Below, piece after piece: positions 12,694-45,115 of a DNA stretch of 64,000 bases. The position numbers and the translations under genes are program-made. The stretch covers positions 1 to 64,000 of IMG/VR virus record IMGVR_UViG_3300028388_005362, one strand, 5' to 3'. Position 1 is the stretch's first letter. Every line of letters begins with the position of its first letter. The notes beneath the pieces were generated by a model that searched no databases, was not told where the DNA came from, and worked only from the letters and a program-made list of their open reading frames with translations. The DNA comes from a virus.

Positions 12694-13569
12694 ATGTCTA
12701 AACAACTGTTTATCCCCACTGGCTTGGAAGTTGCAGGTACTGCTATTTCAGCCATGACTGCTGGCAGGGCAGGTTTCTATGATGGAGACGCTGACAACCT
12801 GGTAGATGACCTGGATCTTGTATCCAGAAAGGCTCCTCTTCAAATCGTATGGAAAAAATCCGACGGTTCTATTGAGAGTTCAAATATTTTCACCATTGAG
12901 GACATTGTATCCGTTTCCAAAGCGGGCTATGATGCCGGTACTGCTCAGGTAGTTACCATCACTCCAGCTCTTCCTGCCACTCAGGCAAAAGGAGACATCT
13001 ACACCCTTAAAGTGATCATCACCACTCCAGGTACTGCAGTCATGCAGAAGAAGACCTATGAGGTGATTAACACAACTGGTGTTGATTTCACTGCTACCAC
13101 TTTGGGTAACGCTTTCCGTTCACTCATCAATGCTGACAGCGAGATTCCTGTGACTGCCACTGGCACGACCACTCTGATTCTGACTGCTGACATCGACGAG
13201 AACTTCCGCGTGGCTACTGATGACAACATGGCTGCTGCCGGTGTTGTTTACACAACCAACATGGACCTGAGCTTCGGTACCCCCGCGAAGATCAAAGACC
13301 TGGAAGCTGAATGCGAATCTTACGGACAAGGAATCACCAACAAAGTTGGTTTCCCAGTGAAACGTCCTGATTCTGAAGTAGGTTCTGGAAACTACGATGT
13401 GTACATCGTTGCATTGGAGCTTAAAGGCAAGAATGTTGATTCTGCCAATCCTTCCAAGTATGAAGACCTGACTCTCTACATTGCCGAACCTACAGGGGCT
13501 GGCGTAGTTGGAGCAGAGCTTGAGAAACTCTTCCTTGGAATAATTGACATCGCTGACGACGGCGTATAG
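12694..13569 (+). CDS. Abundant structural protein, function unknown
   Basis: A 291-residue beta-rich protein with many Thr, Val, Gly and Ala, no membrane segment and few lysines clustered. Capsid-like codon choice (GGT, GCT, ACT) and a dedicated strong terminator immediately downstream argue for very high expression, as for a major virion component. The sequence pattern (VSRKAPLQIVWKK, TLKVIITTPGT, YDVYIVALELKG) would suit a tube, decoration or fibre-base protein. I do not recognise the family, and a tube protein would be unexpected in a short-tailed crAss-like phage. Confidence 0.7.
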   Translation: MSKQLFIPTGLEVAGTAISAMTAGRAGFYDGDADNLVDDLDLVSRKAPLQIVWKKSDGSIESSNIFTIEDIVSVSKAGYDAGTAQVVTITPALPATQAKGDIYTLKVIITTPGTAVMQKKTYEVINTTGVDFTATTLGNAFRSLINADSEIPVTATGTTTLILTADIDENFRVATDDNMAAAGVVYTTNMDLSFGTPAKIKDLEAECESYGQGITNKVGFPVKRPDSEVGSGNYDVYIVALELKGKNVDSANPSKYEDLTLYIAEPTGAGVVGAELEKLFLGIIDIADDGV

Positions 13570-13581
13570 CCAACTGATTAA

Positions 13582-13617
13582 AAGGGGGTGCTCACTTAGT
13601 ACCCCCTTCTTTCTTTT
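13582..13617 (+). terminator. Intrinsic terminator
   Basis: An 8-bp perfect stem, AAGGGGGT (13582-13589) with ACCCCCTT (13601-13608), an 11-base loop, and a pyrimidine/T-rich tail CTTTCTTTT. It ends the transcript of the preceding structural gene. Confidence 0.85.
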
Positions 13618-13648: not shown

Positions 13649-16600
13649 ATGGCCTGGTCAGTAGCCCTTAATTCCCCCGCAAACAATGCTGTTGATGTAG
13701 ATCTGCAGCCAACCTTTACCTGGACAAAGTCACAAAGTCAAGCCGGTGGGGGTGCACCTATATTTATAAACGTATATGAACAGCCAGGCTCTCCGGGTAT
13801 TCCTGCCACTGAAACGGTTGGGGGTGTATTCTGGACCTCTGTTCCCGCAGGTACTGGTGGAAACGCTATCACCAACGTCAAAGACGGGGATGGAAATGCC
13901 ACTACCGTCGATGTTGAAATGCGAACGGGCTGGGATTATGGAGGTATCAATTCAGCCAATGTCACTACCCCTTCCACAGGGCCTTTTGCTTCTGATTCTA
14001 TTGCCAAGAGTTTCGGACAGGATTATGGCGGTGGAGCTTTCATTGATTTAGCCGGACTGGAGCCTAATGGTTCCTATACCATATATGTACTGGCGGCAGG
14101 TGCTGCCGGAAGCGGAAATATCTTTGACATTCATAATGAAGTGGAGGCCGCTACTGCGGGTATCCAGAACTATGATGCTCATGGGGTTACAGTTCCTGAG
14201 ACATACCAAGAACTGCCAAACTTCACTACCACTGCGGATGGTGCAGGTGACCTTGCCATAGAATTCAACGGACAGTTCTGGGCGATGGTTAACGCTATTG
14301 TTATAGAACCTGCTTCTACGCCTGACCCTGAGCCATCCTCAGTATTGAGAGTTTCTTTGAGCTCTAACCTTTCTGCACCGGCTGTTGAGAAGACCCTTGC
14401 CACAGCAGAGACCTACACTCTTCTTGCAGGAGAGGCGCTCGCTGAGAATGATGGATACTTCTGGGGTGTATCTCTGGATGGAGGATCTACATTCGACACC
14501 ATACGTTCCTTTACTACCTTGTCAAACAACCCATTGACTGCTCCGGTATTGACTGGTCCTGCCGATGGAGCCACAGAGGTTCTTAGAACTCCTACATTTT
14601 CCTGGGTTCCTACAGACGCAGCGACCTTGTTCGACCTGGAAGTGTCTCTCAACTCTGACTTCTCTGGGACTTTAGGTGTTGACCGATGGCTCATTGAAAA
14701 CCACAATACCAATTCGTATACTTGGGTAACAGAGTTTGCCAAAGAAGAAACTGTTTACTGGAGAGTCCGCTCAACTGACAATATAGAATACAATTCTCCA
14801 TGGTCTACTTCTCGCAGCTTTACTACTCGTTACGGCGTTCCTGATGCCCCTGTTTTGAGCTCACCCGGTGACGGGGCAAGCGGTGTATCGCTGTCTAACA
14901 CGTTCAGCTGGACTAATGGGGGTGGAGCCACAGAATACGATATTTATATTGACACAGATAGCAACTTTTCTTCTCCTGCAGTAGCCACCGCGTTGGGAAC
15001 TACCTCGTACACTGCCCAAGTTGGAGACATGGATAATTCCAGGGTATACTTCTGGAAGGTTGTTGCCCGTAATGCCTACGGAACGGCTGAAAGTGCTGTC
15101 CGTGGATTCACTTCGGCTGCCCCAAATGTACCTAACCCTCCGGGATTACAATCCCCAAAAAATGGTGCGGTTGACCAATATGTACGTCCGGAGTTTGATT
15201 GGATTGCTTCTCCGGGGGCTACCAAATACAATATTGAAATAGCGGACAATCCTTCGTTTACGAACGCTATAACTTACAATGACCACATCTCAACAAGTAT
15301 CACCATAAACGAATACCTGGAAACAGGAACGTTATATTATTGGAGAGTTGCTGCGGGTAATGCTAACGGCTATGGATCATTCTCCTCAGCCAATACTTTC
15401 ACAACTCAGGCGGTACAACAGACCAATACTCCGGTTTTGGTTTCTCCTGCAAACAATGCAACGGATCAGCCTCTGCAACCCACCTTTGACTGGGATTGGA
15501 CTGCTCCTCAGGCTGGCGGTGGAACCAATTACGGACCTTTACCTGAAGCAAGCACTCGGAACATCTCCAGTATTGTGATCGACTTCTCTTCTGCACCTTC
15601 GTATGTCAATGTGGGACTTGCCCCACTGAAGTACAACAAGACCGGTGTAGTGACAGCGGCTATCGATGACAGTGAAAGGGACGCCTACACCTCAGCTTTC
15701 CAGACAGCGCAAAGCACATTCTTTACCGATGGTTGTGGAAATGATATTCCATTCTCCTTTGCTTTGGCGCATTACATTATAGGATACCAAAACAAAGACG
15801 TTCACTCCCATCCGGATTACTCCTTTAAGTATACCTGGGCGGAGATGGCTGAGATGGCTGTCAAGGGAACAATTCCTGCTAACCACGGTCTATCCGATGC
15901 AGGAGATAATCTGGCATTGGCTGATGCTTATACCAAATGGAAACTTTCCCGCTCACAGCACTTTCCTTCAGGTTTGGTCCGTGGATTCGACCAGAAGTGG
16001 TATGTAGGAACCAATGGAGCGGATGTATCTGCCCAGGCTCTTGCTAACGGGGCTTACGGATGTGATGCTGCCAACTACGGCTCTCAGGGAAGAACATTTG
16101 CAACTGGTGGGGAGAATCTATACAACTCCATCACCCCAGAGACTTTCTTTGCCAAAACCTATCGTCGTTTTGAAGTTCAGTACGATGATGCAGTCAATGC
16201 GATCAATGCTGCGGGAGCCACTACCCGTCCATGGTTGAACTATGGGTTCCATGGGGGAGCGGCCTTATCTTCTCTCATCAACACTGTGGCTTCTGCTCAC
16301 GGTAAGAGTGGAAGTGATAAAGTCTGGTTCTGTTCACAGCAGGAACTTATCGAGTATATGTTCATTCGCGAGTACCTCAGAGTTCCTCATACCGTTAACG
16401 GAAATCAGGTGACTATCACAGTTGACCAGTCTTCTGTACCCGGTGACCTGATGTTCTACGCCGCTACTCTTTTGGTGGATACAGATGCCAACATTTCCAA
16501 CATCACTATAAACGGCGGTATCAACACCGGAATTAAAAAGAACTCGTACAAAATTACCGGGCAGGACGCTATGATTAACCTGGAGTGGAACGGAAACGAT

Positions 16601-19600
16601 TACACTGCTCGTGAGACCATGGCTTCTGATAAGGTGACTATCGCTGAGGGAAATAATACACAGGAGAACCGCGAGATTGCACAGGCGTATGTCAACCTGG
16701 TACCTTCAGGCTCTGCACGTACCACACTGGATGGTAGAATGGCTGCCTTAGGCTCAACGACCTACGTTGCCAGTGAAGACCCTGGTAATATCGATGAGGC
16801 TGCTGGAGTGGTATGGGACCCTGAGAATCTGACCATGAAGTTTGAGCTTCGGGTTTATCCTGATGGGGGAGACATCAACAGCCCAACTGTTGAAGTCACT
16901 GATATTGTAGGAACAGCACACAACCTAACATCTAACTTGGCTGACCGAACCGATTATGACTGGTCTGTTCGAGCCAAGAACGAGGTGTTTGAGTCTGCCT
17001 GGGCAAACGCACGCAACTTTACCACGGTATTTGGTCCACCAGATGCTCCGACACTTGTAGATCCTACTGACGGAGCTGGAGGTGTATCCACCAACCCCTT
17101 ACTTCAGTGGGCTGCTTCTGGCGAAGTGGACGGTTTTGTTCTTCAGTTGACATCCAATTTCGTCGGTCAGACTCCTCAATGGACCGGTCTGGTTGTAGAT
17201 GAAAATGAAACTACTCTGTTAGGCAATGCACGGGATTACCAGGTAACCGGATTGAGCTTCAATACTCAGTACGCCTGGAGGATTATGGCAAAGAACTCTT
17301 ACGGGGATTCTGCCTATGCCGTAGGTACCTTCACCACCGGTAGTGTCCCTGCCCCGGATGCACCAACACCTTTGTCTCCAGCCAACGGTTCGGCAGACAT
17401 CGCAGTCAATGCGGCTTTGAACTGGAACTCTGCTCTAAGAGCATCCTATTACAGGGTAAGAATAATCGACCACAATACCGGACAAACAGTAGTGGAGACC
17501 ACTCAACTGCCCGGTACTACATATTCACTGGGAAGTACAACAGGTATCAATTACGATACGACCTATCGCTGGCAGGTGCTGGCAGGTAATGATACAGGGG
17601 AATCCCCATGGTCTTCTACCTGGTACTTCACCACATCGTCCCGTCCGCTTCCGGGACAGACAGTTCTGATTTCTCCTTCCAACAACGCTTCTGCACAAGA
17701 AGTTCAGCCCACTTTCACATGGGCATCTGACGCCAACGCAGAGGATTATACCTTGGAGGTTTCCACAGACAATCTGGACTTCGACGCCAATATAGTCTAC
17801 ACTGTAGATACTGCAGGAACTTCTCATCAGGTATCAACCCAGTTGAACTACCTGACTACATATTATTGGAGGGTCAAAGCCCGTAACTCATCAGGATATG
17901 GGCCTGCCTCTACCATTCGTACCTTTACTGTAAAGGCTATTCCAGTTCCTGGACAGCCTACCCTACTGACACCTGCTCAGTTCTCAACTGACCTTTCAGC
18001 TCTTCCGAACTTCACTTGGGTAGACGAGCCGTTGAGCGATTCTTACATCCTTCAGGTCAAGAAGATCACTGAGAGTTGGGCAACAGCCAAGAGCTTTACC
18101 CCAGGTGCAGCTACCTATACCATTCAGCAAGCCGACGCTCTGGACTTCTCTGAGGAGTACCAATGGAGAGTAGCCGGTGTGAATGCTTCAGGTACGGGAA
18201 CCTATTCCACCATACGTAACTTCACTGTACAGTCCATTCCTGCTCCTGGAACGCCTACACAGCAGGCTCCGTCTGGAAATGGCATTGCCGTCCGTCCTTC
18301 ATTCACCTGGGATACTGTTCAATATGCAGACCAGTACGAGCTTGAGTTGTGGGAAGAAGGTAAAACCAAAGCAACACTCATCCCTGACTGTAACGCTGGA
18401 TGTACAGAGTATGCTTTGCTGTACGACTTGAAGTACGATACGAACTACTACTGGAGAATGCGTGCGGGCAACTCTACCGGTTGGAGTCCTTGGGGGCCTG
18501 ACCAACTCTTCCGCGTGGGTACTCCTCCTGTATTGAGTGCGCCTGTACACGAAACTCCGGTTGATGGATCTACGAATATGCCGAATCAGCCTTCTGTTTC
18601 CTGGGCCCACGCAGAAAGCGTAGACGAATTTGAGGTGGAATTTGCCACAGATGCAGGGTTCACCAATGTATTTGAGTCCGCTACCCTTAATGAGAGTCAG
18701 CGTATCTACCAGATTCAGACTGTTCTTTCTTACTCTACCACCTATTATTGGAGAGTACGTGCCGCCAAATTCTACAACTCAGGAGACTACCGCCATTTGA
18801 GTGCATACTCTAATGGATGGAGCTTCACTGTTGAAGATCCACCGGTGCCTGGCACACCTACCATCAGCTATCCTACCGGAATCGATAGCCCTCGCCAGCC
18901 ATTGGTACAGTGGAATGACACGGTGGATACGGACACATGGGATATTGACATTGCCGATGATGCAGGTTTCTCCAACATCATCTATACAGCTACTGGTCTG
19001 ACTGCCTCCCAGTATCAGATACCAGCCAAACTGGCTTACAATACGACCTACTATATAAGAGTTCGCTCTGTTAACTCATTCGGAACAAGCGTATGGGCAG
19101 AGGAGAGCTTCACAACTATTGAGCTTCTGGCTCCCGGTACCCCAACAATCAACACGCCATCAAACGGTGATGTGGGTGTATCCAGGGATGTGACTGTGAG
19201 CTGGACACTGGCTTCGTCTTCTGATGAATACGAACTCCAGATCTCCACGGACAACGCTTTTACAGCCCCTGTTGTATATGACAATCTGGGTTCTCTGGAT
19301 TATACCTTCAGCAATCTTACCTATCTGGACACCTATTATGTAAGGGTTCGTGGTAAGAACGAAGCCTACCAGGGAAGTTGGTCTGCTGTGGTCGGGTTCA
19401 CTGTGGAAGAGCCACCAACCCCGGGAAAACCAAACTTGTTAGCTCCTGCAGATAACGACGAGAATGTTTCCCGCTCGGTTACTTTCCAATGGAGTCAGGT
19501 GGTCAATACCGATACCTTCCTGGTGGAGATAGCCACAGACGGTTCGATGAGTAACATCGTATACACCCGAAACGTGGGAAGCGATGTACAGCAACTGGCT

Positions 19601-21076
19601 TTGGGAGAAGACCTGGATTACTTGGGTTCTTACTTCTGGAGGGTTACTGCATCGAATGCCTGGAGAGCCACTCAGTCAGATGTTTCTGCCTTTGTAGTAG
19701 AAGACGCTGCAGAGCCTACGATTCCTGTATTGGGTTCTCCAACTCCTGACCAGAACGATGTGAGTACTACGCCTACATTCCAGTGGTCCAATACCTTCAA
19801 CACAGAGAACTACCACTTGCAGGTATCTCAGGACATCACCTTTGCAAATCAGAGTTTGCTGGTGATAGATGAAGCTCTACTGACCCAGAGCGAGTTTACA
19901 GTCAGCGAGGCGCTGGTTTATCTGACCAAGTACTACTGGAGGGTCAAGGCTACCAACGCTTATAAAGAGAGTGCATGGACAACTGCCCAGCCGTTCATTA
20001 CAACCGATGGTCCTACACCTACTCAGGTGATACAGACCTATCCGGAGGATGGTCAGGTCAATGTGCCTAAGAATACTTCCCTGGTATGGAGACCTTCCAG
20101 CAAGGCTACCTATTACGATCTGGAGATCTCTCCGAATGTGGACTTTATTGGAGCTCGCCAGGTTCAGCTGAACTCTGGTACTCAATACGATGTCTCCGAG
20201 ATAGTTGTCAACAATGACAAGTATTTCTGGAGGGTTCGCGGAGTTAATGTAGCTGACCAAACCTACGTAGGTGACTGGTCTACCATCCGCTCCTTCAGGA
20301 TTGAAAGCGAACAGGCAGAACAGGACCCAAGTGGTGCCCGTCCTGCTTCCAGTATTCAGTTCGACCTGGTGGGATGCAACAGCTTTATCTTCGAACATCA
20401 CTACCGTCTGACGGTATATCCGATAACTCAGAAAGCCCTGACCATCACATTCCCTGACGGAAACGTGCTGCGTTATGCCGAGAAAGCAGAAACCTTCCCA
20501 GAGCTTAACAGCGGTACGGGACTACTGGGTGAGCTGTCTCAGCGCATTTTGGGAGACCTCGATGAATTGGGATACAACACAGGTGCTCCGACCAACATCA
20601 TCATGATGGATTCAGATACCATCAAAAACGATGTGGCGCTCTTCCCTGATATGTTCACCGATGCCAACGGTTTTCCGGCTGCTTACAACTACTCCAGTCT
20701 TCCTGACGGTGTCTACCAGATAGACTTCACCTACCAGGTGGCTGCAGTTGTATCGGAAAGTGAAGCCGCTGCTGAAGTCAAATCAGTGGATGGTAAATCT
20801 ACCCAGTTCACCTTCCGCAAGGAGGTGATGAATACTTGCCTGAGTGATGCCTGCATCAACTCCAAGATTGAGAAGATGTACGAGATACGCTGCAAGGACC
20901 CCATGCGCTGCAATGAGCGTGAGGCGATCCGCAGTCTTATCATGGATGCCACACTTTTAAAAGAAGGCGCAGCAATCGACTTCTCTGAAGGCAGGTTCGC
21001 AAATGCAAATGATAAACTCACCGCGCTGAAGCATTTGTGCTCCACCGGTGAGCTGATCTATAAAAAAGGATGCTAA
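13649..21076 (+). CDS. Giant tail fibre/spike: fibronectin-like repeats with deacetylase-like domain
   Basis: A 2475-residue tail protein with about sixteen fibronectin-III-like modules, each beginning with a P-x-L-x-x-P-x-(D/N)-(N/G)-A pattern followed by F-x-W and later Y-x-W-R-V. Module 1 is interrupted (about residues 31-230) by a carbohydrate-binding-like beta domain. Module 5 is interrupted (about residues 620-1050) by a domain like polysaccharide deacetylases (NodB/CE4): VTAAIDD with Asp673-Asp674, His719 and His721, NHG at 745-747, later LNYGFHGGA and VWFCSQQELIEYM. From about residue 2230 a non-repetitive C-terminus has paired cysteines and a helical end, likely the virion attachment part. 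Probable role: host surface-sugar recognition and modification. Confidence 0.82.
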   Translation: MAWSVALNSPANNAVDVDLQPTFTWTKSQSQAGGGAPIFINVYEQPGSPGIPATETVGGVFWTSVPAGTGGNAITNVKDGDGNATTVDVEMRTGWDYGGINSANVTTPSTGPFASDSIAKSFGQDYGGGAFIDLAGLEPNGSYTIYVLAAGAAGSGNIFDIHNEVEAATAGIQNYDAHGVTVPETYQELPNFTTTADGAGDLAIEFNGQFWAMVNAIVIEPASTPDPEPSSVLRVSLSSNLSAPAVEKTLATAETYTLLAGEALAENDGYFWGVSLDGGSTFDTIRSFTTLSNNPLTAPVLTGPADGATEVLRTPTFSWVPTDAATLFDLEVSLNSDFSGTLGVDRWLIENHNTNSYTWVTEFAKEETVYWRVRSTDNIEYNSPWSTSRSFTTRYGVPDAPVLSSPGDGASGVSLSNTFSWTNGGGATEYDIYIDTDSNFSSPAVATALGTTSYTAQVGDMDNSRVYFWKVVARNAYGTAESAVRGFTSAAPNVPNPPGLQSPKNGAVDQYVRPEFDWIASPGATKYNIEIADNPSFTNAITYNDHISTSITINEYLETGTLYYWRVAAGNANGYGSFSSANTFTTQAVQQTNTPVLVSPANNATDQPLQPTFDWDWTAPQAGGGTNYGPLPEASTRNISSIVIDFSSAPSYVNVGLAPLKYNKTGVVTAAIDDSERDAYTSAFQTAQSTFFTDGCGNDIPFSFALAHYIIGYQNKDVHSHPDYSFKYTWAEMAEMAVKGTIPANHGLSDAGDNLALADAYTKWKLSRSQHFPSGLVRGFDQKWYVGTNGADVSAQALANGAYGCDAANYGSQGRTFATGGENLYNSITPETFFAKTYRRFEVQYDDAVNAINAAGATTRPWLNYGFHGGAALSSLINTVASAHGKSGSDKVWFCSQQELIEYMFIREYLRVPHTVNGNQVTITVDQSSVPGDLMFYAATLLVDTDANISNITINGGINTGIKKNSYKITGQDAMINLEWNGNDYTARETMASDKVTIAEGNNTQENREIAQAYVNLVPSGSARTTLDGRMAALGSTTYVASEDPGNIDEAAGVVWDPENLTMKFELRVYPDGGDINSPTVEVTDIVGTAHNLTSNLADRTDYDWSVRAKNEVFESAWANARNFTTVFGPPDAPTLVDPTDGAGGVSTNPLLQWAASGEVDGFVLQLTSNFVGQTPQWTGLVVDENETTLLGNARDYQVTGLSFNTQYAWRIMAKNSYGDSAYAVGTFTTGSVPAPDAPTPLSPANGSADIAVNAALNWNSALRASYYRVRIIDHNTGQTVVETTQLPGTTYSLGSTTGINYDTTYRWQVLAGNDTGESPWSSTWYFTTSSRPLPGQTVLISPSNNASAQEVQPTFTWASDANAEDYTLEVSTDNLDFDANIVYTVDTAGTSHQVSTQLNYLTTYYWRVKARNSSGYGPASTIRTFTVKAIPVPGQPTLLTPAQFSTDLSALPNFTWVDEPLSDSYILQVKKITESWATAKSFTPGAATYTIQQADALDFSEEYQWRVAGVNASGTGTYSTIRNFTVQSIPAPGTPTQQAPSGNGIAVRPSFTWDTVQYADQYELELWEEGKTKATLIPDCNAGCTEYALLYDLKYDTNYYWRMRAGNSTGWSPWGPDQLFRVGTPPVLSAPVHETPVDGSTNMPNQPSVSWAHAESVDEFEVEFATDAGFTNVFESATLNESQRIYQIQTVLSYSTTYYWRVRAAKFYNSGDYRHLSAYSNGWSFTVEDPPVPGTPTISYPTGIDSPRQPLVQWNDTVDTDTWDIDIADDAGFSNIIYTATGLTASQYQIPAKLAYNTTYYIRVRSVNSFGTSVWAEESFTTIELLAPGTPTINTPSNGDVGVSRDVTVSWTLASSSDEYELQISTDNAFTAPVVYDNLGSLDYTFSNLTYLDTYYVRVRGKNEAYQGSWSAVVGFTVEEPPTPGKPNLLAPADNDENVSRSVTFQWSQVVNTDTFLVEIATDGSMSNIVYTRNVGSDVQQLALGEDLDYLGSYFWRVTASNAWRATQSDVSAFVVEDAAEPTIPVLGSPTPDQNDVSTTPTFQWSNTFNTENYHLQVSQDITFANQSLLVIDEALLTQSEFTVSEALVYLTKYYWRVKATNAYKESAWTTAQPFITTDGPTPTQVIQTYPEDGQVNVPKNTSLVWRPSSKATYYDLEISPNVDFIGARQVQLNSGTQYDVSEIVVNNDKYFWRVRGVNVADQTYVGDWSTIRSFRIESEQAEQDPSGARPASSIQFDLVGCNSFIFEHHYRLTVYPITQKALTITFPDGNVLRYAEKAETFPELNSGTGLLGELSQRILGDLDELGYNTGAPTNIIMMDSDTIKNDVALFPDMFTDANGFPAAYNYSSLPDGVYQIDFTYQVAAVVSESEAAAEVKSVDGKSTQFTFRKEVMNTCLSDACINSKIEKMYEIRCKDPMRCNEREAIRSLIMDATLLKEGAAIDFSEGRFANANDKLTALKHLCSTGELIYKKGC

Positions 21077-21934
21077 ATGAAAGAATCACTCGACCCACGG
21101 GACTATACCAACAAACAGGATTTCTTCAAGGTACTGGACGATGAGTTCCAGTCTTTGACCCTGGAGTTGGCGCAAGCCATGCGCTATTCATTGTGCACCC
21201 AGGAAATCTCCCGACAGCTCACTGAGATGAAGCTGTTGGCAATGGAGCAGGGCTATGAACTTCAGCAAGGAGTCAAGGGTCCTCAGACCTACAAGATAAC
21301 CGTGGTGGAATACGACGGTGCAGGGGGGTATTTCTTCCTTAACGGATTTTACCGCAAGCCTGGCAACAAGGTTTTATTTACCATCGTACCTCCAACAGGT
21401 GCACGGGTCAAGAGTGTGAAGATTGGAGAGGAGACCATATTGGGGGTGAGCATGTTTGAATTCTACATGCCTTCCCAAGATGTCACCGTGGAAATTCGCT
21501 ACGAGTCTTTGGATTTGTTCGATGTCAACTACACGGTAGAATGGAGCGATCTTTCTTGTACTGTACAGCTTTACACCTACCAGTTGGGCTGGAGTGATAG
21601 GGTATGTGTAGGACAAGGAGCATTCTTTACTGTCCAGTGGAACGACCAGGTATGTCTGGTGACCGGAAGCGAATACTTCACTCAGTGGAGTGACATCGTT
21701 TGTGTTGTTTCTGCTTCTGCATTCCAGACTCAATGGAGTGACCCTGCATGTGTAGTGACTCCTACAAATGACTACAACATTCGATTCACTGATCCTGAAT
21801 GCGTCGTAGAGGAAAGCAACTATCGTGTGGACTGGACATCACGTGTATGTGAGGCGCAATCAGCAGATTATTCGGTTCGTTGGGAAGACCCTGAGTGCGC
21901 AGTCACAGATACTCAAACCGGGAATATTAACTAA
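21077..21934 (+). CDS. Tail-associated protein with eight W-S-D-x-x-C repeats
   Basis: A 285-residue protein in three parts. Residues 1-70 are helical. Residues about 75-150 form a beta domain whose end, FYMPSQDVTVEIRYE, resembles InlB-B-type or 'bacterial repeat' domains (F-x-MP-x-x-DVTV). Residues about 152-280 are eight short repeats of 17-19 residues with the core (Q/R/D)W-(S/N/T/E)-D-x-x-C-x-V, giving eight regularly spaced cysteines. It starts one base after the giant fibre's stop and is probably co-expressed with it, perhaps as a fibre tip or adaptor. I do not know this repeat as a named family. Confidence 0.7.
   Translation: MKESLDPRDYTNKQDFFKVLDDEFQSLTLELAQAMRYSLCTQEISRQLTEMKLLAMEQGYELQQGVKGPQTYKITVVEYDGAGGYFFLNGFYRKPGNKVLFTIVPPTGARVKSVKIGEETILGVSMFEFYMPSQDVTVEIRYESLDLFDVNYTVEWSDLSCTVQLYTYQLGWSDRVCVGQGAFFTVQWNDQVCLVTGSEYFTQWSDIVCVVSASAFQTQWSDPACVVTPTNDYNIRFTDPECVVEESNYRVDWTSRVCEAQSADYSVRWEDPECAVTDTQTGNIN
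21530..21901 (+). repeat. Eight tandem Trp/Cys peptide repeats
   Basis: Units start at EWSDLSCTV and run through GWSDRVCVG, QWNDQVCLV, QWSDIVCVV, QWSDPACVV, RFTDPECVV, DWTSRVCEA and RWEDPECAV, spaced 51-57 bases apart. The units diverge enough at DNA level that recent slippage is unlikely, while Trp, Asp and Cys are kept. Confidence 0.85.
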
Positions 21935-33185: not shown

Positions 33186-36100
33186 ATGCCTATCGACAAG
33201 GATCTTCTCAAAAGGGGGTTGGCAAAGCAAAAGCAAGGCCCTCAAGTGATCGGCCCATACCAGGGACCCATTGATAATATGGAATACGGGTCAGGTTTGT
33301 CGGACGCCCTCAAGTACAGACCCAACATCTACAAAGGCGATGACCTCAATAAGATAAAAGCGGACGGTCAAAGCGAATGGAAGAAGGGATTCAACGCTGT
33401 GGTTGGTGGACTGGCTTCCGGATTACTCACTGCGGTAGAAGATACCGGTTATATCCTGGACTTTGAGAACAACCTGAAGAACCTTGCGGACTTGGAGAAC
33501 GTGGAGAGCAACTGGCTCAGCGACCTTGCCAAAGAAGGAAAGCATGCCATAGATGAGGCAATGCCCATCTATACCGAAGACCCCAACAAGATTTGGGATT
33601 GGAACGACAGTGGTCAATACTGGAAAGCATTGAAAGGCATTCTTGACTCGGCTGTGGGCTTCGCCATTCCCGGTGCAGGTGCAACAAAAGTGGTTGGTGC
33701 GGCTCAGCGTCTGGCACGTCTGGGCAGGTACATGAACTTTCTGAAGACCTCTAAGATGGGTCAGCAATTGACCAATTCTCTGGCAGCTGGTTACATCACC
33801 AACTACGGTGAAGGTAAGATGATGGCATTGGAGCAGTACGAGGACTCGTTGGAAAAGTACAAGCATGACCTCTGGGAGCGTACCTTCAAAGAAATTCAAT
33901 CTAAGAACCTGGGAGAAGACCCTGGTGTTCTTACTCAACGTGCTCAGGATCTCTACAACCAAAGGTTGGCAGAGAGCATGCCTGACTTCGAACGTATTGC
34001 CGGCGAAGAGGCGGACAAATTCATGTTCAAGAACAAGGCATTCATGCTCACCGATGCCATGGGCCTACACGGACTTTACCGTGGACAGGGACTCACCCGT
34101 AACATTATCAAAGACCCTTCTTTCAAAGGCGGGTTGAAGGCTATGGGTAAAGCTGACCTGGATAATCCTATCATCCAGGGACTCAAGGAGAGTGCCGAGG
34201 AAATCGGGCAGAACGTTCTGCAGATGGAAGGCAAGTTCCAAACTGCTCAGCGTATGGGACAAGAAACCGAAAGCAACGAGGACCTTTGGAAACGTGCCCT
34301 GGAGTTTGCCACTTCCGACCAGGCTATACTGGAAGGAGCTATGGGATTCTTTGGTGGTGGTCCTCAACGTGTATTGACCAAAGCCGCATCCGGACAGTAC
34401 TCTGCTAAACACCGCAAGCAACAGCGGGAAGCCTATGAGGACCAGCAGTTCATGATGGACCCTGAGGCTAAGACCCGTACCGTTACACGTAAGCGCCCGG
34501 TCTTTGATAACGAGACCGGAGAAGAAACCTTTGAAGAATATGAAGTAACCGAATACAACAATCAATGGTTCATCGAGAACCGCCTGAGCGAGTTCGATCA
34601 GACCCGTAAGCTGATTGATAAAGCCATGGAAAGAGGGGAGAAGGGATTGGCAGAGACCCTGAAGAACCAGATGTTCTTGAAGATGGCATCTGAGAACTTC
34701 GGCAGGGGAACCACCGCCAACCTGGAGCGTGCCCTCAAGGATGTTATTGAATCCAACCTCTCGGAAGAAGAAGTAGCTGAAAAGGGATGGGACCCCGACT
34801 ACAAAGAGCAGGCCCGTGAACAGCTCAAGCTACTCAAGAAGATGGAGAACCGGTGGAATCGTTACACCAAGTACGAGAACCGTGAAGACGTCTTCTACAA
34901 CCGCATGTCCTATGATACTCTTCATGAACAGTTCTGGAACGCTTATAATAAGAGGAAAGAGGCGGAAGCCCTCACCGACCAGATTCTGGAGATGAAAGGA
35001 CTGCAAAGAGAAAACTTGACCGAGGAGCAATACCAGGAGTATATGCAAATGGAGTCCGTGCAGGATGAAATCTACTACGAGGAGTTGCGCTCTGCTATCC
35101 ACAAACAGAGGGAAAAGCTGGATTCAGATTATCGCAAGATAACTTCTGATGAGTACCAGTCCTCTCTTCGTAAGATGGACCGGCAATTCAAACGTATTGT
35201 CAAAGAACAGGCTGCTAAAGCCCGTGCAGAAGCCAAGCGCCAGAAGGATAAGGCAAAAGCAGAGAGCCGTTCTGAGAAACAATCTAAAACTCAACCTAAA
35301 AATAACAACGCCGATGAATCAACTGTATCTTCTGAAGAACAGGGTGGAAACACTGGAGGAGAAAGTCAGACGTCTGGAACAGACAGTGGAACTACTCAAC
35401 CAAAAACTCGATCCCCCAAAACCCAGCCTTCCAACCCAGGTACCGACGGTTCCAGTGCAACCTCCGATACCCAGCAAACTGAGGCTGAACCCGTTTCAGA
35501 CGAAGAGTACGCAGATTTTGTTGACAACGGCAATGTAAGCGATCATCGCTTGCACATGATTGCCTCCAAGATACAGTCAGGCAAACAGAACGAATTATCC
35601 GAGAGAGAAAAAGCGATACACGCTGCCAAAACGCAGGAGGTGGAAGAGATGCTCCGTCTGCGAAAACAGCATGAAGAAGAACGAAAAAGAAAAGAGAAGG
35701 GCACTGCCAACGAGCAGACCCGTGCCAAGCAACAGCAGCAGGAGAACACCGATGAGATATTCACCGAGCGGGATACCGATTCTACCACAGAGCAGAACAC
35801 CAAGGCTGAGGAGTTGCTCAATGAGACCAACCCGGACGGTATTGAGGTACACGATAAGGTAGCTCTTCTGTCTCGTAACTATATCAGAAAAGGTCAATCC
35901 ACTTTCATCGACCTGGATAACAATGTCATCCGCTCCATGGATGGAATGCACGACATTCTCTTCAGCGATTTGGTAGGAGAAGGAACCAAGATCCGACTGG
36001 TGGTTGTAGATGACCCGGATGTGGAAATCTCTTCCGAGCTGACCTATCAGGTCTCCACTCAGGGAAAGACCACCTGGGGAGCCATCCGTGATAACGAACA

Positions 36101-39100
36101 GGACAAGACCAACAGAATTCCCATCCAGATACAACTGGAGGACGGGACCGCTATTGGCTGGTTGCATGAGATGAACTATGCCAACGAGTTCGCTACTGAC
36201 GACTCTTCGGCGCGTTTATATGCCGTTCGTAAAGCTGTCCTGGAGAAAGGCCCCATTGAAACTACCGTAACGAGCAATAACGGTGGTAAATTTTTTAGAT
36301 ACGCTAACAACGAACAGCGCCCTGTTGGAGAAGCCATGCCGAATGCAACTATGGCGGTTGTCAAGAACGGAGAGCTTATTTCCAATGGCGAGGTTGTTCA
36401 GGTGGACAATCCTGAGAGCCTGGCAAACGGTATGACCTACACCGTAATAGAGAGTGCGGGCAAGCGTTATGCCTTACAGGTCAACCCAACCAAGTTCACT
36501 GATACCGAATCCGGTCGTGCCCTCAAGCGGACCATTCTGAAAGTCATTGAGATCTTTACCGATGGAGACAGCCGTACAGCTGAGCAAGAAGAGATTGTCA
36601 ACCAGATAATGGAGAATACCCGTAACTGGCCCGGAGGTGCAGTCAACATCACCACCGCCAAAGGTATGGACAGGTATCTGAGTGCCATCATGCTCAACAG
36701 CAATATCCACGGAGCTTCTATGCTATGGGCTGGTAGAAACGAAAAGGATAAGTCCAGGGGCTATCTTAACAACAATAAAATCAAACCCGGCGCTGTCATC
36801 TTCACCATTAAGAATGGCGCCATCTCAGGCTCCCGCGATAAGGGGGTAGAACATGTTTCCCTGTCGAAGAACTCCCCGGAGAGTTTCCGTAAGGGAAAAG
36901 GAATCGAGGTATTTGAATCCCTTCTGGACAAAGCCTATGTCAAGATAGACAAGAACCTGGTGGGCTCCGATAAGAACATCGTTCTGATTGGGGAAGACGG
37001 ACAGGCTACCGTTGAGAAATACCAGGACATCGCAGGAAAGATTACCCAGACCAACCTAAAAGGGGTTCAGGTCAACACATCACAGGGCGAACGAACCACC
37101 TATCGATTCCAACCACGGATCACGTTCGATATTTCTTTTGCTCCTCTGCCATTACCTGAGCAAAACGCCCAGAGCCAGCCCGCCAATGAATCCGGGCCGA
37201 ATGCTATGGAAGTATTCAACAAGGTCAAAGGATTATTCATCAGCGACCCCAATGAGATGCTGGACAAGTGGAACAGCATTGCTCCCATGGAACAGTGGTT
37301 GACAGAAGCTGTTGTAGAGTGGTTCACCCAGAACAAGAATGCCTACAACAAAGCCATGGAGGATTATGCCAAGTACAGCGGACAGAAAGCCTCTGATGCT
37401 TACAAGCGCTTGATGGTCCTGCAGAAATCTTTTGAGGCGGCTATCAAAAGGGCATCCCTTAAAGCTATCTCTATGCCAGATACTTCCTCGGTGGTCAAAC
37501 CGCCTTTGGAAAAGCCTGTGCAACCGCAGGAGACTCAACAGGAAATGAGCGAGGAAGAGCTGGCAAGTCATTTGGGGTTAAGTGATGGTCAGATAGGAGA
37601 CATCAATATTTTGGTGGACGCAGACGAGGAGCCTAATTTCGAGGGTCCCGTACTCACAGAAGCCAAGGTGGCTGAGCTTATCAAGGCTACTCAAAACATG
37701 ATTATCGAAGGTCTGGGGCTTAAATTCCAGACCGAACTGGTAGAGACCATGGCGTCAGACATCTTCCGTCAACTCATCGAGAGTGAAGAGGGAAGAATGG
37801 AGTTTGCCGAGACCATGGAAACCTATAAGGATCTGGCAGCCAAAGCCGTTGCCGCTGCACAAAAAGACATTGATACACTGTCCGCAGGTATCAACAGCGG
37901 GACTCTGTCTGAAAAGAATACTCTGACCGCTAAGAAGGTACTTGCCCAACGACAGAAGGTGCAGGATGTATGGAATAATGTACTGAGCAACTGGGACAGA
38001 CTTTCCCAGTTCACCTTCGAGCGTGTGATGCAATTCAGCGACACGGCTATCGACGGAGACCCGGAGAACTTGCGTTGGGATGACAACTCAGCATTCACCG
38101 TGGACACTAAAGAGAGTGTAGCTCCTATGCTCAAACGATTTTTGGCTTTGATTCCTGAGCGAGATGCGGACGGGAATACCGTTAAGACTGTTTTGGGAAC
38201 GACCAAGTACTTGGCTTTCGATAAGGTCTACAACATCCTTCAGCGGACCACACCTAATCGCCGTCCGGACTTCAATGAATTGATGGAAGCCATCGATGAG
38301 AACACCAAAGCCTATCCTTTCTTAGCTGAGGTGAAAGCCGAGTTGATGAAGGCTGACCAGCAGATGAAGAACCTGTTTGTGGGAGCTATGAGCAACCACT
38401 ATGTGAACATGCAACTGGTCGAGTGGTCCAGAGGAGAAAACGGAGAGTTCACTCTTCGCGCTCTGAGTGCTAACTCCAATGCTATTGCATTGACCATCTT
38501 CGACATCTGGAGAGAAAATCTCAAAAGACACGATGATGTTTTTCAGGTGGAAGGTGAAGAGGAAGAGTACTTCATCGGGCCTGAATTGATTAAACGTCTG
38601 ACCGATGCAGCTAATACATGGGGACATGTAACCCCGGATAAAGGAGGCCTCAAGTACTGGTTTGAGCAGTTGGGTATCACTCTAAGTGAGAAGACTGTCG
38701 AGGACATTCTCTCTGGAGCCTTTCAATACGGCAACACAAAGAGTTTCCAGGACCACGTCAACAATCCGGGAGGACTTATCCACACCTTGGTTAAAAACCT
38801 GAGTACCCGTGGAAAAACCAGCCTGAGCGATAACGATCCTTTGAATAACACCGTTGTCAAGCGGTTGTCCCGTCACGATGCCCAGTACAGCCAAAATGCA
38901 CTGAGTAACTCCCTGCAGACTGGAGGAAAGACCGTATATGCTTACGGACAAAACAAGTATGCCATTGTTCGTCACAACGAGCTGAAGCGTTTGAACACTT
39001 CGACCAAGGACGGCAAGAAGGTAAAGACCAATACACTTCTAACCCGCCTGGCGAAATACGGGTTCAGTGGTAATTCCCTGTGGTTGTATAAAATGGCTAA

Positions 39101-42100
39101 GACCAAGAATGGTGAGTTGCAATATGCCGATAACGGAGAGATAATTGTGGATGAGAACGGCGCATTTCTGACCAACCTTCGTCCATGGACCACATCTCTG
39201 GAACCTTTGCGCAAGAAAGGAAGCTCTTCACGTGAAGGCCGTGAGCTGTACAACATCTCTGCCGCTGAGCACGAACTCTTCAAGATGGGTATGCTGATGA
39301 CCGACGTGAGTGATGAGAGCGGAAACAACAAACGTATCATTAACGTCACATATCCGACCAATTCGGATAAGACCACACAGATCGGATTCCAGATAGAAGC
39401 TGCTGATCTGCAGTTGGATCGTGAGGGTAACCTGGACTCCGACTCCCTTGAGTTGTTATACGAGGCGTTGGTTGCCCCGGAAATACAGCGGGTTCGTCAG
39501 GCAAGACAGGGCGGAATCGATGCAAACAACAAGGCGTACTCCAGCGGAGCCAGGTGGTTCATGCTGATGCCTGAGATAAACAATATTGAAGGAATCTTCT
39601 ACGAGGACGGGCGTTTGAACGAGGACATAGAGGGGGAGATGAAGCAGAAGATCATAGAGGTACTCCAAAGCTATGTCAAGCAGTTAGCGGAAAAGAAAGT
39701 ATCCGACTGGAACGACATGGGTATAATCACCAAAAGCTCTGAGCTGGATAAGCGTTACCGCGATCACCTCAGTGCCGTAGATGAGAATAAGCAGCTTCAG
39801 GGAGCAGCCACCGATATGGTAGCCCAATACCTGGTAGCCAATGCCGAAATATTCAAGATGTTCATCGGTGACCCGGCCCAGTTCTATAAGACCTCTGTTT
39901 ACAAAGATGTCAAAAAGAGACTGGTAGCTGAAGGCGTGGTTACACAACAGCAGGCCGCTGATATGAGCAACCGGGAAGTGGAAGAGCACTTCACCTCCGA
40001 TGACATCATTCAGATCGCTGAAGATACTTTCCTCAATGTAGGTAAGCGGTTGGCGGGTGATATTGCTCCGGGACAGGAGCTGGCAGGAACCGACCGTCAG
40101 TACCACCCCATCAAGACAACCAAGCGCAGGTTTGGCAAGAGCAAGACCCGTAAGTTCTCCCGTGCCAACGATACGGGAAAACAATACAAGACTGTGGTAC
40201 TCCAAGACTTTAAAGGAACGTCCACAGCCATGAAGCAACTCAAAGAGCTGTTCAAGGATGACCCCAAGGTAGCCGCCCAGTACGGCGGATTCGAGTCCAC
40301 TGATGCACAGGAGTATACTACATGGGAAGAGCACCTTAACATGATGCTCTGGACAGGTAAGTTATCCGAGGAAGAGTATACCAATTTCTACGATAAACTC
40401 TCCCAGGGAGAAGACCTGGGCAAGAAGGACCTCAAGAAGGTACTCCAGCCCATGAAGCCGGTATATGTCTACAATACCGAAGACAAATCCGGAACATACG
40501 ACCGCCGTGTGTATGTCAAAAGCTCCTCCTTCCCATTGATTCCTCAGCTGGTACGGGGATTGGAATTGGAGAAGCTGGCTAAAGCCATGCAGACACAAGG
40601 CATTCAACGCGCTGCATTTGCTACGGCGGTCAAGGTGGGTGCCCCTGCTAAGCTCGCCCAGGTGTTCAATACCGACGGTACGATAAAAGATGATTTGGAT
40701 TTTACTGATTCCCAGTTGACTCTGGAGCGTGCTGGACTTCGTATCCAGCAGCAGATTCCTTACGATGGTTCCAAAGCCTCCATCAACCGTGTATCTCAGG
40801 CGATGAAGAACTTCATGGTGAACATGATGGATGTGGAAGGATTCAAGGTCAAGTGGCATAACGACGGCAAGCCCATTAACGGTCGCGAACTTCACTCTTT
40901 GTTCCTGGAGAACTACGAGAAGCTGTTCGAGATGAGCAAGGAAGAGCTGTTGGAAGAACTGCAGGATAGCGATGGTAGTTTCTCCCAGGATAAGATCATC
41001 AAACTGTTGCGAAGAGAAGCTATTGAGCGTGACTACCCTATGAGTGAGGTAGAGATGACCGAGTACGAAGACTTCCTTCGCATGATGCCTTATCTGCCCT
41101 CTGCCGATAGATTTGAGGCCCTTTTGAACTCCATTATAACCAATCGCATTGTCAAGCAGAAAATGCCTGGTAAATCGTATGTATTGGGTGCTCAGGAAGG
41201 CTTTAAGACTTTGGATGAGTTGGACAATGATACCCGTGCCGGTATAACATTCACTCCCGCTTTTGATGGGGAGTTGAAGAGCAACCAGGTATTGATTCCA
41301 TGGAAATTCAAGACCCCCGACGGTAAACTGATCAACATGCGTCAGTTCGTGGGCAAGGACGGCAAGATTGACATGGACAGGCTCAGTCCTGAGGTACTGA
41401 AAATATTTGGTATGCGTATTCCAAACCAGGGACCTATGTCACAACGGTCACTGGAAATCGCCGGGTTCCTGCCCAAGGCTTCCGGAGACCTTATCATTGC
41501 TCCTCGTGACCTTGTGGTACAAATGGGTAGTGACTTTGATGTGGATAAGCTCTACACTTACATGTACAACGTAGAGGTGGTTGGAAGCAAGGAACATCCC
41601 CAGCTACTCAAGTTCGTATACAGTGAAGGTAAGCACAACAAGCACAAAAAGTACAAATTTCATAAGAAAATAGATACTGACACAGAGCGTGAGATGACCG
41701 AGGTTGAAACCATCCGGGAGCTTACCCGAATGGAACACCAGAACAAGGTCATCGACATCATGCACGCTGTTCATGAGAACCCTGACCGCTCCGTACAAAA
41801 GCAGATCCACACCCCGTTAGGATTCTGGCATTTGCCTGAGGTAGCCCAGAAGGTTACAAAGGCCCGCCGTGCCCGTATGCAAGGAGGAGATTTGTTCACC
41901 GGACTCTCTGATGCCTACCAGCGTCAGAAGTACATCAACGCTACTGCAGGTAAGTCTGGAACAGGAGTATTCGCTAAGGATTCTGCCTTCAATGCCACCA
42001 TCCAGGGGGTGGAAAAGCCCATGAATCTGAGAGGTAAAGGCAAGAGACCATACACGGTCACTTTCGGAAACCGTAACAGCGGAAAACAGGGACTCAATAG

Positions 42101-45100
42101 CCCCATGGCACTGGATGGCAAGACTTACAAGAGTGATGTCATCTCCGGATACCTGTCTGCGGCTGTGGATAACGAGAAGGAACAGCTGCTGGATAAGCTC
42201 AACATCAACAATGCCACCTTCGGAGTGGTTACCCTGTTGAACCAGATGGGATTCACCGATGAGGTGCTGTACTTCATCACCCAGGACATTATCTTCGACT
42301 ACGCTGAAAACCTGGCGAAGGTCAGAAGTTCCCTCAACGAAGAGGAGAAAGGTAATCCTGAGGCACGGGCCATGAAGATGACCCTCGACCAATATGAGAA
42401 GAAAGCACAGCAGGCTGGAAAGAGTTGGTCCATTGACGACAATGAAGTATGGAACCGCTACAAAGCTCCGTATGTCAAGGACATGGAGAAGATGATTGTG
42501 GAGGGGGAAAATTCCCAGGATTATTTCGTTCGTCAGTTGGCGATACTGGAAAAATTCAAGGAGTTGCAGAAGGCTGCTAAGAGTCTGGGTGCTGTACAAG
42601 CAGCTGTAAACCCGGATTCCAAAGGTATGCCTAAAGATATGGTCGGGTTGAGTTTGAAACAAACTGCAGCCGCTGAGCTGGGCAAAAAGCTCATTAACGG
42701 AGAGGACCTTATCCACCCTGTTGGAAAAGCCAAGACCGTTAACGCCATCGTACACAGGAATGCCACAAACCTGGCAGTCCAGCTTTGGCTCAGCGGAAAC
42801 AACGGGGTGAGCTTCCCATACGCCTCTCCATCCACTTTGGAGTCACTGCTTGAAGGCTATCAACTCATTACCCAGAAAGAGCTGTTCAGCGATACGGAGA
42901 AATCCAATGTTGCCCGCGAGATGTGGAATGATATGAAGAGTTATCTGTTCACCGCCCAAACACTGGGATTGAGCAGAAAGGATGTGAAGTCCTTGCGCCA
43001 TACCCTCACCCACGACGAACGTAAAAAAGAGAAAGGGGATAACAATACGGTTAGCTGGGAGCACACCAAAATGTCTTTGGCTTCCATCGTCAAAGCTCTT
43101 CAGGATTCCGGGCAGCTGGGCAACAATGCCTTCTTCAACAAACTCATTCCTCACCCGGGATACAAAGGAAACCCTGCGCGGGTAGACCTTAACGCTGCTG
43201 TCAGTGAAGACTTTGACCCCATCAATACTTATCGCGGGTTCATCGATTTGTTGATTCATGACAAACCTTTGGGCACATTCAACGGGGTTGAGTACACCAC
43301 ACGTAAGCTGGCGAGTGATCTGATTGCTTATGCGTATGTTACGGGAGGAGTACAAAAGGCCCACCAATTCATACGTTACGTTCCACCGGCATACCTGAAG
43401 ACCATCGGGTTCTTTGACGGGTTGTTTGCCATTGAGGATGCCAAACCGGATGTCCAGATATTTCTGGACCAGTGGGCTCAGCACAATGCCAAGCGGGTTC
43501 CCCAGGTCAAGTTCTCCGAAGCACAAAAAAGTGCTGATGGCAAGGATTGGATCTCTTTGACCAGCTTTGCCCCGGATAACAAAGTGGATACCTTCTGGTA
43601 CCAGGAAACGGTGAAGGGGAAAGAACTTAGCTTCCCTGTTCCTTTTGTTGCTGTTAAGAATAGTAAAGGCACCTTGGCACTGTTCAAACTCAAGGACGGT
43701 GTATACGAGAGGATTGACACACTGGGCAACAAGTTCGGGTACAAGGAATATGACTTCCAGAGTGCTGTCGGAGAATCCCAGATTCCAAAGAATCGGGGGT
43801 ATCGCAAAGACAGTGCGGATGTCAACAACCCTTCCCATGAGGATGGAAAAGTTCAGAACACCGACAAGGCAACAAAGGGTGGGCGATTGATGGACACCGG
43901 TGGAAGAACCACCCACAGGAAGAATTTGGGCAGGATAAAGAAAGCAACTACTAACAAGTACCTGCAGACCCTTGCAGATGCTTTGAGCAAGCGCCCAGAC
44001 CTGACTCCAGAGAATATGAGGGTCACCAAAAGCAAGAATCCATTGATTGCCGGACGCTCGTTTGTGGACGAAAGAGGCGCCAGTATTTTGGAAATGAACC
44101 CACATGTTCCGAAATTTGAAGATGTGAATGAATTTGCCAAGACATACCTGCATGAGACCATGCACCTGTTGACCCGCTCGCAGTTGATCCGTTATGAAAA
44201 TTATCTCAAGGACACGGAAGGTACCCGGGAATCCCGCATGCGTAAATGGGGGCTGACCCCTAAGAGCATTGCCGCGATGGCAGAATTGCGTCGGGTACAC
44301 CTGATGGCAAGAGAGGAGCTGATGAAGGACCCCAAAGCCAAGGAGCTGATGGATAAGTTAGCCCTTCGTGAGCAGTATAAGGAGCAATATAAGAATGAGG
44401 AAATCACCCAGGAGCAGTTACTGGAAAAAGTGGATGCTCTACAACTGAGTACATACGACACACAACAGTACTATGGTATATATAATCTAAAGGAATTCGT
44501 TGCAGAAGCATTGACCAATGAGAAGTTCCAGAGGAGATTGAACGATATTACAGATAACCAAGGCACCACCTGGCTCGACCGCATCCTCGACAAGCTCAAG
44601 GATCTGTTTGCCTCTTTAGGCTTTGAGGTCAAGAAAGGCTCTGTGCTGGAAACAGCCGTAGTGAATACCTTCTCTCTGATTGAGGGCATGCCTGCTACTG
44701 AGGAAGCCGCTCAGCTCAAGGACATCAAAGAGGAGAAGAAATCGGTCGATAGTCCGCTTGCCGGAATGGCTGGACTGGGGACAAACTCTTCGGAGTACCC
44801 CGCTGTGAATGCCAATCCCGTACTGGAAATCAACCGCAAGCTGATGGGGGAGAACCTGGTGGGACAAGACGGTCGCATCACCGGTGGTACCAAGGATTTG
44901 AACCGTGCAGCCGAGATAGTCAAGGGACACAACCAAGCCTCCCTGGAGCGTATTGGAGTACCTTTGGCGAAACTTAACTGGGCTGACCGCAAGGTAGAGT
45001 TCGACCAAGCGGCTGTCGATAAGTATCGAAAGTATATGAATGCCACAGAATTCTTAGGAGAGTTCGAGGCAGAGAAAGTAAATGAATACAAAGAGAAATA

Positions 45101-45113: not shown

Positions 45114-45115
45114 TC

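Follow-up and report, generated by a model that had tools for sequence, protein, structure and literature searches.

The 64,000-nucleotide stretch of DNA analyzed here (the window), which is part of a 93,879-base IMG/VR virus record, raises the question of whether a deacetylase-like domain is nested inside a fibronectin (fn3) module of a phage tail protein, and whether the loop that receives it is a docking point for exchangeable domains on the fibre. The gene concerned lies at 13649..21076 on the + strand, the strand of all parts of this gene and its neighbours given below. It forms a single unbroken frame of 2475 codons with matches to fn3, Polysacc_deac_3 and tail families, and its product is annotated here as a putative fibre/hub fusion protein. 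The major capsid protein, portal and muzzle of the window matched Crassvirales or related phage families (the muzzle by Pfam), with the capsid protein matching at least 80 IMG/VR loci at 71-78% identity; the window is a Crassvirales genome, i.e., that of an uncultured crAss-like phage. Elsewhere in this genome, RIIA-like and RIIB-like genes adjoin each other (52398-56172, - strand), and very large ORFs of 3975 and 1268 aa lie where crAss phages have their virion RNA polymerase (33186-48913). The phage also encodes a tyrosine integrase (Phage_int_SAM_5, Phage_integrase) at 10577-11899 of L175 (90577-91899 of the record), and may therefore be temperate.

Two interrupted fibronectin modules

In agreement with the initial annotation of a 2475-aa ORF with fn3 modules, the intact frame encodes 16 such modules, 14 of them whole and two (modules 1 and 5) split; membership of the fn3 family was shown by a Pfam fn3 match (1.5e-30) as well as by the repeated module itself. 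We built a module profile from the protein's own 14 intact modules, each of which scores 81-107 bits. With this profile, intact modules were located at 14531..15418 (modules 2-4, 90-100 bits each) and 17036..20314 (modules 6-16). Module 1 was recovered in two parts, a first half comprising strands A-B (13649..13738; residues 6-30, profile 6-30) and a second half at 14339..14530 (residues 233-291, profile 36-97), with E-values in a small search of 4e-8 and 6e-5, respectively. Module 5 was similarly divided between 15419..15508 (residues 593-617, profile 3-27) and 16829..17035 (residues about 1062-1126, profile 31-95), the E-values, again from a small search, being 2e-8 and 1.5e-12. Searched with the same profile, inserts 1 and 5 were found to contain no fn3 module of their own (E 0.4 or worse).

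In profile numbering, both breaks lie between 27-30 and 31-36, past strand B but ahead of strand C. These positions are equivalent in modules 1 and 5, and the breaks are therefore in the same loop, the B-C loop. Comparison of the profile positions thus confirmed that modules 1 and 5 are interrupted in one and the same B-C loop. The fn3 halves flanking insert 5 were modelled by AlphaFold2 with low confidence (pLDDT about 30-50), and a closed split module therefore rests on sequence only. The pentapeptide QAGGG is found at both insertions, at residues 31-35 and 621-625, in each case six residues past a conserved Trp (W25 and W615). Module 5 split around a NodB/CE4-like domain, module 1 split at the equivalent place by a different domain, and an identical QAGGG at both insertions had all been proposed in the initial annotation; the profile halves, the fold of insert 5 described below and the common offset from the Trp bear out these proposals, with the residue ranges correct to within a few residues and the two insertion points in the same loop rather than in different ones.

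The QAGGG codons, CAAGCCGGTGGGGGT in one module vs CAGGCTGGCGGTGGA in the other, differ in the third base of all five, each time synonymously, so the sharing does not stem from a recent duplication at the DNA level. In their first halves, modules 1 and 5 were the most alike of 120 module pairs (14/20 residues, mean 6.1), with the unsplit module 8 nearly as close to them (13/20). A strand-B-like stretch was also detected at the right of insert 5 (16784-16828, residues about 1046-1060; profile 15-30, about 8 bits), and may perhaps be a partial duplication made at insertion.

The further proposal, that this loop is a docking point for exchangeable domains, drew mixed evidence. Two different inserts do occupy one loop; however, no B-C loop insert was present in ten further viral-contig proteins with several fn3 modules, a small sample, and no additional fibre bearing a domain in this loop was found. 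Within the protein itself, just two of the 16 modules bear inserts. A single-protein scan of viral contigs with the fn3 rod gave no relatives, nor was a relative with the same fibre found. It is close to an even prospect, falling slightly short, that QAGGG and the common loop reflect a coincidence, or the trace of one old module duplication, and that there is no docking rule. With six fn3 loops equally likely, two inserts, the total available, would share one loop by chance in about 1 case in 6; modules 1, 5 and 8 are near relatives, of which module 8 is unsplit; and the other split fn3 module that was found is cut at a different loop. The latter is an fn3-like module of another contig (L191, ORF from 8205, + strand, residues 299-580) interrupted by a 185-aa domain at profile 49/54. 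What speaks against coincidence or duplication is that the loop, the Trp offset and five residues are common to both modules despite all the codons differing, while the inserts are unrelated. Two inserts in one loop of one protein are suggestive and make no rule.

The nested domains

Insert 5 (15509..16828), which starts with QAGGG, was modelled by AlphaFold2 with a pLDDT of about 90 or more across most of residues 639-1033. Foldseek matched it best to BoPDA (4dwe; E 2e-22, 479 aligned columns), followed by chitin deacetylases, ArnD (8t0j) and PplD (6dq3), with 5znt, 3s6o and 2vyo also among the matches. The prediction yielded the NodB fold (a deformed beta/alpha barrel) that had been claimed for this domain. 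Strands at residues 639-657 and 914-980 surround the CE4 barrel and are followed by helices at 988-1033. As modelled, insert 5 is a whole BoPDA-type unit, in which a beta-sandwich CBM encloses the CE4 barrel and a helical bundle follows. The initial annotation was therefore right about the fold, but had overlooked the complete unit, which is a nested architecture in its own right.

The Pfam PF15421 (Polysacc_deac_3) score of insert 5 was 23.3 bits, below the curated cut-off of 28.5, which was passed by five of its relatives (L092, L095, L160, L171 and L172). The family was first reached through a stand-alone protein that is encoded by a 636-kb phage (L082) and aligned with insert 5, and came to comprise 82 homologous loci, 68 from genomes (Bacteroidota, with one labelled Chlorobiota) and 14 from viral contigs, many of which align along residues about 633-1045. 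A single-protein scan of viral contigs with insert 5 found no relatives. Many of the relatives encoded on chromosomes are large, and the ones that were scanned bear a C-terminal sorting domain and are therefore probably secreted. The three viral relatives checked (L160, L162 and L172) all adjoin tail or virion genes. A quick tree of the family requires the virus label to change six times, and well-supported branches force five of these changes; in this tree, the row of the window's insert 5 is a long branch of unsure placement. A structure alignment that included the fn3 modules as extra rows was dropped, as it aligned the module Trp to a CE4-domain Trp in near-invariant columns.

Several observations were made on the viral relatives in passing. 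Two viral records (L171 and L172) encode strong PF15421 proteins, that of L172 having tape-measure, virion and tail-fibre genes as neighbours. The phage protein at 7434-9353 of L161/L162 combines an N-terminal beta-type domain, which may resemble insert 1, with a BoPDA-type unit and lies beside a tail-fibre gene.

The catalytic set of insert 5, on which the initial annotation was silent, is noncanonical. MT1 has both Asp residues, Asp673-Asp674 (15665..15670), kept in 82/86 and 77/86 relatives, respectively. MT2 reads HGLSD instead of H(S/T)xxH: His746 (15884..15886) is retained, as in 71/86 relatives, and the second His is replaced by Asp750. Loss of this second His was considered as a feature unique to the window phage, which was rejected, since it is absent in 52/86 relatives too (position 750 being His in only 34/86). 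The MT5 catalytic residue, His868 (16250..16252), is kept in 77/86 relatives, and Arg839 is kept too. Asp674 and His746 stand at the aligned motif positions of the BoPDA-type His-Asp dyad, which the sequence is thus predicted to retain. The MT3 Pro, present in 84/84 aligned relatives, is Thr788 in insert 5, and the activity of insert 5 is therefore uncertain.

According to its published account, BoPDA has a CE4 domain set into a CBM, a bundle of helices and a His-Asp metal dyad that lacks the second MT2 His, an architecture regarded as distinct to Bacteroides (PMC11713874). It is possible, although we lean against it, that the CE4-like unit no longer cuts and is a pseudo-enzyme retained as a carbohydrate-binding module on the fibre. 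The change of the otherwise invariant MT3 Pro, the missing second MT2 His and the long branch of insert 5 would all be expected of such a protein, and BoPDA, with the same dyad, was inactive in vitro, showing no activity on chitin, xylan or pNPA (PMC11713874). On the other hand, Asp673, Asp674, His746, Arg839 and His868 are retained, the second MT2 His is missing in more than half of the relatives as well, and CtAxeA is active without it (cited in PMC11713874).

Insert 1 (13739..14338), about 200 aa in length, likewise starts with QAGGG. It had no significant match in Pfam, phage records, PDB sequences or viral contigs, nor in 295 genomes of one class, the latter in a search run without a positive control. 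Its alignment with the N-terminal domain of the L161 protein was in register and not significant (E 0.34). We infer that insert 1 is probably a second binding domain.

The C-terminal domain and its place in the tail region

Homologues of gp33, gp34, gp40, gp42 and gp43 occur in the window in crAss001 order. Between gp35 and gp40, crAss001 carries AUX gp36, a homing endonuclease, THA (tail hub protein A) gp38 and THB gp39; between its gp34 and gp40 homologues, the window carries a 291-aa gene at 12694, the 2475-aa gene, a gene at 21077 and a 111-aa ORF. By synteny, the first of these (12694..13569) takes the auxiliary-capsid (gp36) position. It shows 40-49% identity to ORFs of the closest relatives, is only borderline in profile comparison with gp36, and found no relatives in a single-protein scan of viral contigs. 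The gene at 21077..21934 takes the THB position: its N-terminal 75 aa match a 93-aa ORF after THA (E 2e-6, L054), which follows the THA-place ORF in each of the closest relatives (L054, L020 and L021). Towards its C-terminus this gene product carries some seven repeats in a row, each of 20-25 aa and built around a W-x-D-x-x-C-like core. Next in the same three relatives comes a fibre gene of 1016-1177 aa, S74-type in L020, to which no match was found in the rest of the window genome.

The gap that separates the AUX-position gene from the fibre gene contains a putative intrinsic terminator at 13582..13608, with a hairpin of -18.5 kcal/mol (z -3.6). A hairpin lies in the same gap in 8 of 9 other loci read, crAss001 included, L067 having a short gap only. 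This AUX/THA gap hairpin (L012, L016, L014, L004, L020, L054 and crAss001) seems to be conserved across Crassvirales with its sequence changed.

The C-terminal domain of the 2475-aa protein (20342..21073) is tail-hub-A-like by family profile, tblastn, same-place ORFs and fold. Its profile match had an E-value of 8e-81, from a family partly built from the window's own row, and tblastn matched it to relatives down to 1e-16. By this profile family, the C-terminal ~245 aa correspond to an ORF of 179-246 aa that stands by itself in the same place in 39 loci (33 contigs), and no other long version of the ORF was seen among them. Given this homology to a separate, presumed hub ORF, the enzyme-bearing fibre would amount to ~2230 aa added in front of a hub protein. 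The initial designation as a tail protein stands, given the tail-family matches, but it had missed the tail-hub-like C-terminus, which all relatives encode as a short gene of its own.

The model of this domain (pLDDT 74.8) comprises a beta domain plus a helical C-terminus. Its BFVD fold matches included viral proteins at E-values of 4e-6 (an unnamed protein) and 6e-5 (Cellulophaga phage phi17:2 structural protein). Two weaker matches were to proteins as long as known or presumed THA proteins: phi14:2 S0A0T4 (E 0.018, prob 0.99) has 186 aa, the length of g087, a THA-slot protein that is virion-proven by MS/MS, and a 206-aa cr111_1 protein (E 0.07) equals the cr111_1 gp38 homologue in length. 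Of 350,542 PDB chains, Foldseek ranked the crAss001 chain 7qoj_H (188 residues) 41st, with an E-value of 0.72, and this chain had the top query TM-score among the 50 matches listed; within 7qoj the name tail hub protein A belongs to chain G, and chain H was assumed from its length to be the same protein. Comparison of the C-terminal family with gp38 by hhalign was not significant (P 0.07-0.38), and the family profile gave chance matches only against the PDB. In position, the domain comes after AUX and before THB and R2. We consider it likely that the C-terminal domain is THA, i.e., crAss001 gp38-like; synteny and fold point there, while sequence profiles alone do not.

That it is instead another Crassvirales virion protein of similar size, with the fibre attached elsewhere, e.g., to the capsid, appears distinctly unlikely. 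The lack of significance of the gp38 profile match would agree with this, as would the adjoining AUX assignment, which is likewise mainly positional; however, the domain occupies the same slot after a conserved terminator, is followed by a THB-like gene and then R2, and has fold matches to proteins of THA-gene length in crAss-like phages.

The reality of the fusion was also considered. A search for an internal start from which a short hub protein could be made by itself found no ATG at the fibre/hub junction; further on, at 20828, there is an ATG whose Shine-Dalgarno-like stretch lies just 2-3 bases ahead of it. A second genome with the fibre/hub fusion was not found, though the frame runs without a break over 7.4 kb. 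That a secreted fn3 protein of a host was wrongly joined to the hub gene of a phage during assembly might be suspected from the lack of a second copy of the junction and from the frequency of BoPDA-type units in Bacteroidota genomes, but is extremely improbable given the unbroken 2475-codon frame, the even G+C along it, the start of the gene directly after the conserved terminator and the lack of a likely start codon at the junction.

A proposed fibre and its known counterparts

Our favoured reading, which we hold to be reasonably likely, is that the 2475-aa protein is a receptor-binding fibre on a Crassvirales tail-hub protein, with two B-C-loop domains placed sideways on an fn3 rod. The C-terminal ~245 aa, as a THA domain, would anchor the protein in the collar around the tail barrel, and the N-terminal ~2230 aa would form the rod of 16 fn3 modules. 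The sideways position of the working domains on this rod would follow from the splicing of each into the B-C loop of its module (1 or 5). Each of the 12 hubs of crAss001 contains two copies of THA and a single THB, and is the docking site of one trimeric fibre (PMC10172136). Assembly as in crAss001 would place up to 24 covalent fn3 rods on the collar, each presumably with its CE4/CBM unit and second domain held sideways on the B-C loops. Insert 5 would most likely bind, and may deacetylate, a surface polysaccharide of what is presumably a Bacteroidota host: the CBM would hold, and the CE4 domain perhaps trim, the acetylated polysaccharide while the muzzle reaches the membrane. A broader proposal, that the B-C loop is a standing insertion site for host-derived enzymes or lectins in Crassvirales fibres, and that a rod present in 24 copies through covalent tail hub A replaces the docked trimeric fibre, is unlikely.

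If the favoured reading is true, the protein exemplifies a modular scheme by which a phage fibre bears polysaccharide enzymes on its side, an unusual mounting, as well as a Crassvirales tail whose fibre and hub form a single polypeptide, the hub then setting the fibre copy number. The relatives of insert 5 widen the BoPDA architecture beyond Bacteroides to many Bacteroidota and several phage lineages, with at least five forced host-virus label changes in the quick tree of these units.

Several components have precedents. Structural phage deacetylases (PMC8471582, PMC9569702), hub-adjacent polysaccharide enzymes (phi14:2) and crAss Ig-like arrays (PMC6949934) are already known; in the portion of the literature covered, neither a CE4 unit within an fn3 module nor a THA-fused fibre was found to have been reported. 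The tailspike deacetylase of phage Aristophanes and Possum gp66 are structural proteins reported to deacetylate host polysaccharide (PMC8471582, PMC9569702). Possum gp66 differs in being an SGNH-type hydrolase, and neither protein is described, in the accessible sections of those reports, as nested in fn3 or fused to a hub. The BACON-repeat gp64 of p-crAssphage is similarly a long Ig-like array in the tail gene region, but it is a BACON array with no enzyme noted in the accessible part of its description (PMC6949934); a BACON array likewise fused to the hub was considered for p-crAssphage and rejected, since gp64 is a separate gene several genes from the hub position.

Closer in arrangement is Cellulophaga phage phi14:2, a marine crAss-like phage in which a virion-proven pectate lyase (g086) is encoded beside the THA-position g087; there, however, two genes are involved, the enzyme is a lyase and not a deacetylase, and no fn3 splitting is annotated. 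THA gp38 of phi-crAss001 (PDB 7qoj, 7qol and 8ckb) resembles the C-terminus in slot, size, neighbours and its beta domain with helical C-terminus. It differs in being a separate 215-aa protein, the trimeric fibre gp22 docking separately (PMC10172136), whereas in the window about 2230 aa of fibre precede the domain. Finally, BoPDA of Bacteroides ovatus (BACOVA_03992; PDB 4dwe, 9d44, 9d4i, 9d5t and 9d60; PF15421) shares with insert 5 the CE4 domain in a beta-sandwich CBM, the C-terminal helical bundle, the His-Asp metal dyad without the second MT2 His and the MT5 His. BoPDA is bacterial and encoded in a capsule locus, whereas the whole unit in the window sits inside an fn3 module belonging to a phage fibre and no longer has the MT3 Pro.
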